64,000 nucleotides of DNA. It comes from an uncultured Candidatus Entotheonella sp. Lineage in GTDB: Bacteria; Tectomicrobia; Entotheonellia; Entotheonellales; Entotheonellaceae. The notes below the pieces were generated by a model. The model was not told the origin of the DNA. It ran no database searches and was given only the letters and a program-made list of their open reading frames with translations. Each line of letters starts with the position of its first letter. Positions within the stretch are counted from its first letter, which is position 1. The DNA is taken from the NCBI GenBank assembly GCA_951828535.1, contig OX639990.1:2715300-2779299 (forward strand), read 5' to 3'. Position numbers and translations under genes: made by a program. Positions 16,882-18,982 of the stretch are shown here, in pieces.

Positions 16882-16903
16882 TCGATGGGAAGGGCGACGC
16901 TTG

Positions 16904-17017
16904 GTGCGGACAAAGGAAGCAGCTTGGCACGCCATTATCGACAACTTGGAGGGGCTCGGGTTGGGGAACGATGCGGAAGAAAGACGTCTTGAAACGCACG
17001 GAGGCAGTGTGAGATGA
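16904..17017 (+). CDS. Short ORF leading into the ATPase-DUF4276 module (uncertain)
   Basis: A 37-codon frame starting with GTG (16904) or TTG (16901) and ending at a TGA that overlaps the ATPase start codon as ATGA. It encodes an amphipathic-looking stretch, [19 protein letters not shown], then [18 protein letters not shown] precedes the TTG. The ribosome site for the ATPase lies inside its last codons. It may be a small leader or antitoxin-like gene, the tail of a lost upstream gene, or chance. Confidence 0.3.
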
Positions 17018-18258
17018 CTCAAATAGTCTTGCCAAACGGCGCACCGCCACGAATCGAATACCTGAAGGTGCGAAATTTTCGTGCTTTGCAAGAGGTCGAG
17101 TTCAGAAACTTGACGCCGATGACGGTGCTGCTCGGCCCGAACGGTAGCGGAAAGTCCACAGTGTTCGACGTGTTCGCGTTTCTTGCGGAATGCTTTGAGA
17201 TCGGCCTGCGGCGTGCCTGGGACCGGCGCGGAAGGGCCAGGGAGCTCAAGACCCGCGGCGCCGAAGGCGCGGTGACGATCGAGATCAAATACCGCGAACG
17301 ACCGAAGACGCCCCTGATTACCTACCATCTGGCTGTCGATGAGCCGGCAGGGGCGCCGGTGGTCGTTCGTGAATCGCTGAGTTGGAAGCGACAAAGCTAC
17401 GGAGCACCGTTCCGTTTTCTCGAGTATCAGCGCGGCCAAGGCCAGGCCGCCAGCGGCGAGGCGCCGGATGCGGAAGACCAACGGGTTGATATTCCGCTCA
17501 AATCGTCCGATCTGCTTGCGGTCAACGCCCTGGGTCAATTTCAGGAACATCCGCGCGTGGCGGCTCTGCGCGATTTCATCATGGGCTGGCACGTGTCCTA
17601 TCTTTCTGCTGAAAGCGCCCGCGGCCTACAAGAAGCGGGACCGCATGAACGGCTGACGAGAACCGGCGACAATCTCGCCAACGTCATCCAATACCTGGCT
17701 GAGCAATATCCAGAGCGGCTTGAGCGTATTTTTCACGCGTTACGCGCACGCGTACCTCGTATCGAACGCGTGCTGGCCGAAACCATGCAGGACGGTCGGC
17801 TACTGCTACAGATAAAAGATGCCCCCTTCAGTCATCCCGTGTTGGCCCGTTTCGCCTCCGACGGCACCCTGAAGATGCTGGCCTACCTGGTGCTGCTGTA
17901 CGATCCGGAACCGCCGCCCTTCGTCGGTATCGAAGAGCCGGAGAATTTTCTGCACCCGCGGCTGCTGCACGGACTGGCTGAGGAATGTCGCGAGGCCAGC
18001 GCGCGCACCCAATTACTCGTCACCACCCATTCCCCCTTCTTTATTGATGCGCTGCGACTCAACGAGGTGCGCGTCCTATGGCGCGACGAGAACGGCCACA
18101 CGCGAACGCGGTGCGTCAAGGACATGAACGGCGTACCCGAATTCGTAGAGGCTGGCGCACAACTCGGTGATTTGTGGATGGAGGGCCAATTCCGGGTAGG
18201 TGACCCACTGACCGACCACGGCGCCCCGACGGTCGGTTTTGGTGGGGACAGAATATGA
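17014..18258 (+). CDS. AAA ATPase of the AAA_21/OLD-like type, first gene of a two-gene module
   Basis: A 414-residue ABC/SMC-type ATPase without transmembrane segments. The Walker A motif GPNGSGKST is at 41-49, directly after the [14 protein letters not shown]-terminal strand typical of RecF/OLD-like ATPases. A signature-like segment [16 protein letters not shown] precedes Walker B ([12 protein letters not shown], Glu307-Glu308), and the H-loop TTHS lies at 337-340. OLD nucleases carry a TOPRIM domain after this core, but this protein ends soon after it. The downstream gene overlaps by ATGA and may supply the missing effector, as in other ATPase-TOPRIM defence pairs. Defence function is inferred, not shown. 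Confidence 0.85.
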
Positions 18259-18872
18259 GGACGCGGCACCTGGAGGTACTAACCGAGGAGCGTTCAATGG
18301 AGGTGTTTCTGCAAACCCTGTTGCCGCGCCTATTGCCCGAGGACTCGACGTTTACAATCCATGTCTTTCGAGGCAAGCACGACCTGTTGAGAAAGCTGCA
18401 GGATCGGCTGCATGGCTATACTGGCTGGATACCTGAGAGCTGCCGGGTTGTGGTGGTGATCGACCGCGACAACAACGACTGCCGGGCACTGAAAGAACCA
18501 CTCGAAGCCGCGGCGGCAGCGTCGGGTCTGGTTACGCGTTCGCAGGCAGGCGGCGGTCCTTGGCAAGTGGTCAATCGCATTGCCATCGAGGAATTGGAGG
18601 CGTGGTATTTCGGCGACTGGAAAGCCGTGTGCAGTGCCTATCCGCGCGTATCGCCGAACATTCCGAACCAAGCTCACTACCGCGACCCCGACACGATCCG
18701 GGGCGGCACCTGGGAAGCATTTGAGCGAATCATGAAGAGGCACGGGTACTTCAGGGGAGGATTGGGCAAGGTACAAGCGGCAAGCGCTGTCGCCAAAGGC
18801 ATTGACCCGGCACGCAGCCGCTCGAACAGTTTCAGAGTATTCCATCACGCCATCGTGGAAGCGACCGCATGA
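18255..18872 (+). CDS. DUF4276 family protein, partner of the ATPase
   Basis: A 205-residue DUF4276 protein. Acidic residues are arranged as in TOPRIM-like folds: Glu11, Glu12 and Glu16 in [10 protein letters not shown], then [12 protein letters not shown] with Asp70, Asp72 and Asp75. A conserved FRGKHDLL segment lies between them and [11 protein letters not shown] follows. DUF4276 genes are known next to AAA ATPases in many bacteria; I expect a metal-dependent nuclease or phosphotransfer role, but this is inference. Start ATG overlaps the ATPase stop by four bases, so the two are translationally coupled. Confidence 0.82.
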
Positions 18873-18953
18873 ACGATACCCCGGACCGCGACCGGCACGG
18901 CGACGCCGCAACCCGGCGGGACCGGAATAATGAATGAACAGCGCGTTGTCCCG

Positions 18954-18982
18954 TTGACTGAGGCGATGGGTCGGCATACTCT
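18954..18982 (+). promoter_or_regulatory. Promoter of the Ldh-type dehydrogenase gene
   Basis: TTGACT (18954-18959), 17-base spacer, TACTCT (18977-18982), 29 bases before the ATG at 19012, with GGAG between. The spacing is ideal and the boxes differ from consensus at few positions. Confidence 0.6.

Follow-up and report, generated by a model that had tools for sequence, protein, structure and literature searches.

The two genes between positions 17014 and 18872 of the window (by which we mean the whole stretch of 64,000 nucleotides that was analysed, from an uncultured Candidatus Entotheonella sp.) are, by their profile matches, a member of the PADLOC candidate defence family HEC-01, and by analogy with related systems they probably act as a two-gene sensor-nuclease anti-phage module of the type in which an ABC ATPase is split from its TOPRIM partner. 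A sequence-only reading had taken them for a candidate defence pair with the logic of PARIS or OLD systems, and this is supported by the predicted fold of the second protein, by the linkage of the two genes and by an association with type I restriction genes in relatives; the defence function is one that we infer from these. The genes and their junction are:

17014 to 18258, forward strand: ATPase gene, OLD/SMC-like ABC (AAA_21), 414 aa; proposed sensor subunit (HEC-01 ATPase)
18255 to 18872, forward strand: DUF4276 gene, 205 aa; predicted TOPRIM-fold nuclease effector (HEC-01 partner)
18255 to 18258, forward strand: ATGA start/stop overlap of the ATPase and DUF4276 genes; translational coupling

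Both open reading frames, and the ATGA that joins them, lie just where the sequence-only reading had drawn them. Pfam assigns the ATPase to AAA_21 (2.9e-31) and its partner to DUF4276 (4.6e-30); a search of NCBIfam gave no match for the DUF4276 protein. When compared with the PADLOC models for HEC-01, the ATPase matched PDLC04182 over residues 12-397 (520.8 bits, E 6.1e-157) and the DUF4276 protein matched PDLC04202 over residues 5-202 (280.2 bits, E 2.9e-84). Both required components of the family are thereby matched near full length by adjacent, overlapping genes, and nothing of substance was found in which the window pair differs from HEC-01. HEC stands for 'Hma embedded candidate', a candidate class (PMC10855318), and in the literature HEC-01 is used as a label in genome annotation (PMC12724379). 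The name refers to a different neighbourhood (Hma), whereas the recurrent partner in our analysis is type I restriction. The combination of an ATPase with DUF4276 had been described as not well characterised; the pair turns out to be catalogued already, although among the papers searched there was no experimental study of HEC-01 activity or phage protection, and the term 'DUF4276' did not turn up in any of the 5.39 million papers, nor did 'PF14103'. What is already known is the ATPase-plus-TOPRIM logic and the pair itself as candidate HEC-01, and the useful additions made here are the coupling to hsdS and the TOPRIM assignment of DUF4276. We also noted that the PADLOC labels HEC-01A and HEC-01B look swapped, as PDLC04144 ('B') matches the ATPase and PDLC04143 ('A') matches the DUF4276 protein.

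The ATPase carries the following motifs:

17134 to 17160, forward strand: Walker A, GPNGSGKST, residues 41-49; near-invariant in homologues
17857 to 17874, forward strand: ABC signature-like loop, SDGTLK, residues 282-287; S282, D283, G284, T285 and K287 invariant
17923 to 17958, forward strand: Walker B / D-loop region, residues 304-315, with E307 and E308; E307 to N311 invariant
18022 to 18039, forward strand: H-loop, TTHSPF, with H339; H339 invariant

It can be seen that all four of these elements, which had been proposed from the letters alone, are intact, and they are nearly invariant in the 53-82 homologues compared; the signature-like SDGT spans residues 282-285 and the Walker B motif with its catalytic glutamate, EEPE, residues 307-310. 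Pfam finds neither a TOPRIM nor a nuclease domain in this protein, in line with the earlier claim that it has none. An AlphaFold model of the ATPase (pLDDT 82.6) matches the heads of PtuA, Rad50 and SMC (Z about 19-21).

By its predicted structure, the DUF4276 protein is in all probability a TOPRIM nuclease. The residues that bear on this assignment are:

18285 to 18302, forward strand: TOPRIM acidic motif after strand 1, with E11, (E12) and E16; E11 aligned to the OLD catalytic Glu (role from PMC6755086)
18372 to 18377, forward strand: Gly-Lys after strand 2, G40 and K41, at the TOPRIM glycine position; conserved (FRGK) and aligned to the OLD Gly region
18462 to 18470, forward strand: TOPRIM DxD motif, D70 and D72; invariant, aligned to the OLD D-x-D
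18591 to 18599, forward strand: E113 and E115, where the helical part begins; invariant, putative equivalents by order of BpOLD T506/E508 (metal B; PMC6755086)
18768 to 18770, forward strand: K172; 95% conserved, putative equivalent by order of the catalytic Lys562 of BpOLD

In a comparison with solved structures, the AlphaFold model of this protein (mean pLDDT 91.1) matched best the TOPRIM domain of the B. pseudomallei OLD protein (6nk8; Z 11.6, 167 residues, 3.6 A), which was also the top hit of Foldseek. Next came the TOPRIM domain of X. campestris OLD (6njw; Z 10.3) and the hypothetical protein PH0156 (2p62; Z 9.6), followed at Z 9.3 by both the OLD nuclease of T. scotoductus (6p74) and chain A of the PARIS complex (8ux9_A); the first unrelated row had Z 7.9. 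Sequence searches of the solved structures, with the single sequence and with a profile, gave no credible match, so the claim of a TOPRIM fold rests on the predicted model. Alignment by hhalign of the DUF4276 profile with OLD TOPRIM sequences from other genomes was weak (E 0.0044 in a single comparison, probability 7.8%); it placed E11 on the OLD catalytic Glu, D70-x-D72 on the DxD and the FRGK segment on the OLD Gly region. The protein thus combines the core fold, as predicted, with a Glu after strand 1, a Gly after strand 2 and a DxD after strand 3. In BpOLD, metal A is bound by E400, D455 and D457 and metal B by E404, T506 and E508, with K562 assisting (PMC6755086). The same order (E, E, DxD, ExE, K) is found in the DUF4276 protein, where E11, E16, D70, D72, E113, E115 and K172 are either invariant or at least 90% conserved. 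The sequence-only reading had noticed a Glu and an Asp-x-Asp resembling a TOPRIM-like acidic site and had asked for structure prediction; the invariance of Asp70 and Asp72, the alignment of E11 and the fold of the model with its conserved catalytic residues all agree with it.

The two genes are linked almost without exception. Relatives were sampled as 80 homologues of 52-74% identity fetched from other species, and the ATPase gene was adjacent and on the same strand at 86 of 87 homologous loci, the exception being cut by a contig end. A family-wide search with PF14103 covered 98 genomes, from which 30 DUF4276 loci were fetched; an ABC ATPase lay upstream on the same strand at 29 of these, with broken or partial ATPase frames at three of the 29 (L132, L140 and L152), and the sole locus lacking one is a 100-aa fragment in the genome from which the window itself comes. 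The tree distances of ATPase and DUF4276 proteins correlate (r 0.55 among close relatives, with 0 of 2000 permutations as high). We conclude that the linkage of the pair is near-obligate and far exceeds what chance would give, and conserved linkage, one of the checks proposed beforehand, holds across many phyla. The relatives come from Pseudomonadota, Acidobacteriota, Latescibacterota, Planctomycetota, Cyanobacteriota, Gemmatimonadota, Myxococcota, one archaeon and others, and the ATPase tree shows 20 phylum changes against a minimum possible of 12, which is consistent with some transfer. Presence is patchy (6 of 98 sampled genomes), the pair was carried by 6 of 72,556 plasmid records, and it was not found in the phage records searched.

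Two overlapping genes with a scattered distribution and a nuclease-like effector could also be read as a toxin-antitoxin-like addiction pair, a selfish module without regular defence benefit in which the DUF4276 nuclease would be a toxin countered by the ATPase as antitoxin. The ATPase of PARIS likewise restrains a toxic nuclease (PMC12409363). However, a simple antitoxin would not usually be a large, conserved ATPase whose hydrolysis site is intact, and the pair is rare on plasmids, where addiction modules abound. We therefore regard this explanation as unlikely.

The strongest association of the pair is with type I restriction genes. Using Pfam calls on representatives (HSDR_N, Methylase_S, HsdM_N/N6_Mtase), hsdR, hsdS or hsdM were found at 22 of 80 loci, with HsdR at 17, HsdS at 15 and HsdM at 8, the HsdS members at L020, L045 and L025 being assigned by clustering only. 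The 17 loci with hsdR compare with 0.24 expected when the density of hsdR in the 98 genomes is applied to an equal amount of flanking DNA (Poisson 5e-26). On the tree, at least 15 changes of the restriction label are needed, so the association is not one inherited cluster. The typical gene order is hsdM-hsdS-ATPase-DUF4276-hsdR, in which the hsdS stop and the ATPase start can overlap as ATGA (for example at L022 and L079), and there are about a dozen loci where an ATGA of this kind joins the ATPase start to the end of hsdS or of a relic of its tail. Upstream of the ATPase, 16 of 77 loci have a C-terminal HsdS tail (LRDTLLPKLISGELRV), against 0.06 expected, and mostly with the ATGA overlap. Among these loci, at L002, L031, L042, L046 and L057 a short or truncated hsdS-like tail has been kept where there are no recognised restriction genes, so several copies are probably derived, on the evidence of these tails, from an hsdS-linked arrangement. 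Type I restriction genes were the only strong recurrent neighbours; away from restriction loci, metabolic genes make up most of the neighbourhood, and AAA_15/21, DUF4143 and Fic genes occur there in small numbers. Enrichment in defence islands, one of the checks proposed beforehand, is strong for type I restriction genes and weak for other defence genes, and no housekeeping linkage emerged from the neighbours of the relatives. It counts against a defence module of the ATPase-TOPRIM type that the bulk of copies, with their metabolic neighbours, are outside defence islands and that the window copy has no restriction or defence neighbours; the rarity on plasmids, the absence from the phage records searched and the weak sequence-only link to TOPRIM count the same way.

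The link with hsdS could alternatively reflect hitchhiking, restriction loci being hotspots that take up unrelated defence genes. The pair would then be a stand-alone immune module that answers a phage trigger of its own, and DUF4276 would be a DNA nuclease of the OLD kind, directed at the phage DNA itself, and not a suicide effector that is activated when restriction is lost. Most copies, including that of the window, have no restriction genes within 6 kb, and other genes, DUF4143 ATPases and DUF3226 pairs among them, are also inserted in type I loci. The fold is also closest to that of OLD DNA nucleases (Z 11.6, versus 9.3 for the PARIS chain). Against hitchhiking, the ATPase gene and hsdS overlap by ATGA, and HsdS tails are kept in front of the ATPase at loci that lack a recognised hsdS gene; both observations point to co-expression with the specificity subunit and not to lodging by chance. 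We judge that this alternative might well be correct, if at somewhat less than even chances.

Several known systems share features with the split ATPase-TOPRIM module that we favour. PARIS (AriA/AriB, 'class 4 OLD') likewise encodes an ABC ATPase and a TOPRIM protein as separate genes of one operon; in it the TOPRIM tRNase AriB is held by the ABC ATPase AriA until phage Ocr binds, the target being tRNA-Lys (PMC12409363, PMC9122126). The AriA model matches the window ATPase weakly (105 bits, against 520.8 for the HEC-01 model). However, AriB is a DUF4435 protein, whereas Pfam, searched up to E 1, assigned the window effector to DUF4276 and gave no DUF4435 match; full membership of PARIS was rejected. 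The OLD nucleases of classes 1 and 2, and GajA, share with the DUF4276 model a TOPRIM fold that includes a helical part, and the putative catalytic residues of the DUF4276 protein follow one another as theirs do; the TOPRIM domains of OLD and Gabija cut DNA (PMC10568477). In classes 1 and 2, and in GajA, the ATPase and TOPRIM parts are fused, whereas in the window they are encoded by two genes, so membership of those classes was rejected. Gabija was rejected as well, since it also needs the UvrD-like helicase GajB and the window locus, with its metabolic flanks, has no such neighbour. MAD3 of MADS resembles the window ATPase (NCBIfam NF047739), but at 118 bits the match is far under the cut-off of 420 and membership of MADS was also rejected.

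Two further comparisons concern modules that sit inside other defence loci. Dyads of an OLD-ABC protein and a TOPRIM protein are inserted in BREX loci and have been read as back-up suicide effectors (PMC12839542). They are like the window pair in combining an ABC ATPase with a nuclease and are set in a modification-based defence system; the paper deals with BREX loci and does not name DUF4276, whereas here the host system is type I restriction and the coupling is to hsdS. The gene for PrrC is embedded in an hsd locus, answers the inhibition of restriction and guards the type I enzyme (PMC12707154). The anticodon nucleases PrrC and RloC thus share with many HEC-01 relatives a place in type I restriction loci, but they differ from the window pair in being single proteins with an unrelated nuclease domain (HEPN).

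By analogy with these systems, the ATPase, as an OLD/SMC-like ABC protein, should dimerise through ATP and would act as the sensor, holding the DUF4276 TOPRIM nuclease inactive. An event brought about by the phage would release or activate the nuclease, which would then cut nucleic acid (DNA or tRNA) with two metal ions, and this cleavage would stop the infection, probably through arrest of the cell. Since many relatives are translationally coupled to hsdS, the trigger would most likely be interference with restriction of the kind known for PARIS and PrrC, coming either from an anti-restriction protein or from inhibition of the HsdMSR complex. The roles of sensor and effector, the nuclease activity, the trigger, the substrate and the outcome are all proposed on this analogy. 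As a more specific and tentative suggestion, HEC-01/DUF4276 may be a guardian of restriction, in which an ATPase translated behind HsdS senses the type I enzyme or phage inhibitors of it and unleashes the TOPRIM nuclease; stand-alone copies of the window type might then have escaped from this arrangement and watch over whichever restriction system the cell has, and hsdR is indeed present elsewhere in the host genome. If confirmed, this would place a further guardian of restriction, built independently, alongside PrrC and PARIS. The hsdS coupling gives a concrete lead to the trigger, and for DUF4276, which has no described function, the probable TOPRIM fold and the pairing with an ABC ATPase suggest a role that can be put to the test for the entire Pfam family.

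The window's own copy stands alone. It is flanked by tyrS and a small membrane protein gene on one side and by genes for an Ldh-family dehydrogenase and an IlvD-like protein on the other, as had been described when it was placed between unrelated housekeeping genes, and none of the ten genes nearest to the pair has a PADLOC match. Two further features of the locus are:

16886 to 18969, no strand assigned: segment between synteny breakpoints relative to a same-genus genome, about 2.1 kb (module and short flanks)
16901 to 17017, forward strand: short open frame, about 38 aa, with its stop overlapping the start of the ATPase gene (ATGA 17014-17017); no homologue among related loci

Synteny with the same-genus genome (about 90% DNA identity) stops at 16885, just past the membrane protein gene, and resumes at 18970, just ahead of the dehydrogenase gene, and the G+C content of the module (about 0.59-0.62) compares with mostly 0.62-0.70 around it. 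The earlier description of the locus as like an inserted module is supported, short of proof, by these breaks; the two flanks are far apart in the relative, with other genes at the breaks, and no clean empty site was seen. No tRNA gene was found in the 64-kb window and no convincing direct repeat flanks the module, as looked for in connection with site-specific insertion, and a promoter scan gave nothing above chance. The same-genus genome has, at the position beside the small membrane protein, a different and apparently accessory gene (L099:4273-6087), and this position may be a site of gene turnover. The overlap of the 38-aa frame with the ATPase gene resembles the hsdS junction of restriction loci; the frame matches nothing among relatives, so we rejected it as a conserved third gene or HsdS tail, and it is perhaps the remnant of an upstream gene. 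Elsewhere the host genome has hsdR, as well as a further intact pair of DUF4276 and ATPase genes and what look like two remnants of DUF4276 genes (G000:C1, 1977767-1978426, 2912090-2912260 and 1193060-1193298), a picture of turnover.

With many copies lying among metabolic genes, a pair serving housekeeping or genome maintenance has also to be considered. Cran1, an archaeal OLD protein, offers a parallel: its role is in the cell cycle and not in defence, and it shows that OLD-family proteins without an antiviral role exist (PMC12796447). The patchy presence of the pair (6 of 98 genomes, scattered over phyla) argues against such a function, as do the decayed copies in the host genome, the type I restriction genes as the strongest recurrent partners, and the same-genus genome, from which the close form is absent and which has only one that is 35% identical. 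We consider a housekeeping role very improbable.

Some loci of the relatives contain further unusual genes. At L035 (2557-4763) and L026 (2662-4763) a nucleotidyltransferase (MNT) domain is fused to HsdS directly upstream of the HEC-01 ATPase, and this frame is preceded by an NTase-substrate-binding (HEPN-like) gene; in their domains the two resemble a toxin-antitoxin pair, here incorporated in a type I restriction operon. A single open reading frame with HsdS-type and GIY-YIG nuclease domains adjoins HEC-01 at L081 (3030-4670). In two cyanobacterial loci a second ABC ATPase gene and then a DUF3226 gene lie downstream of DUF4276 (L054:2992-4287, L078:8050-8742), possibly another ATPase-effector pair stacked in a type I locus.
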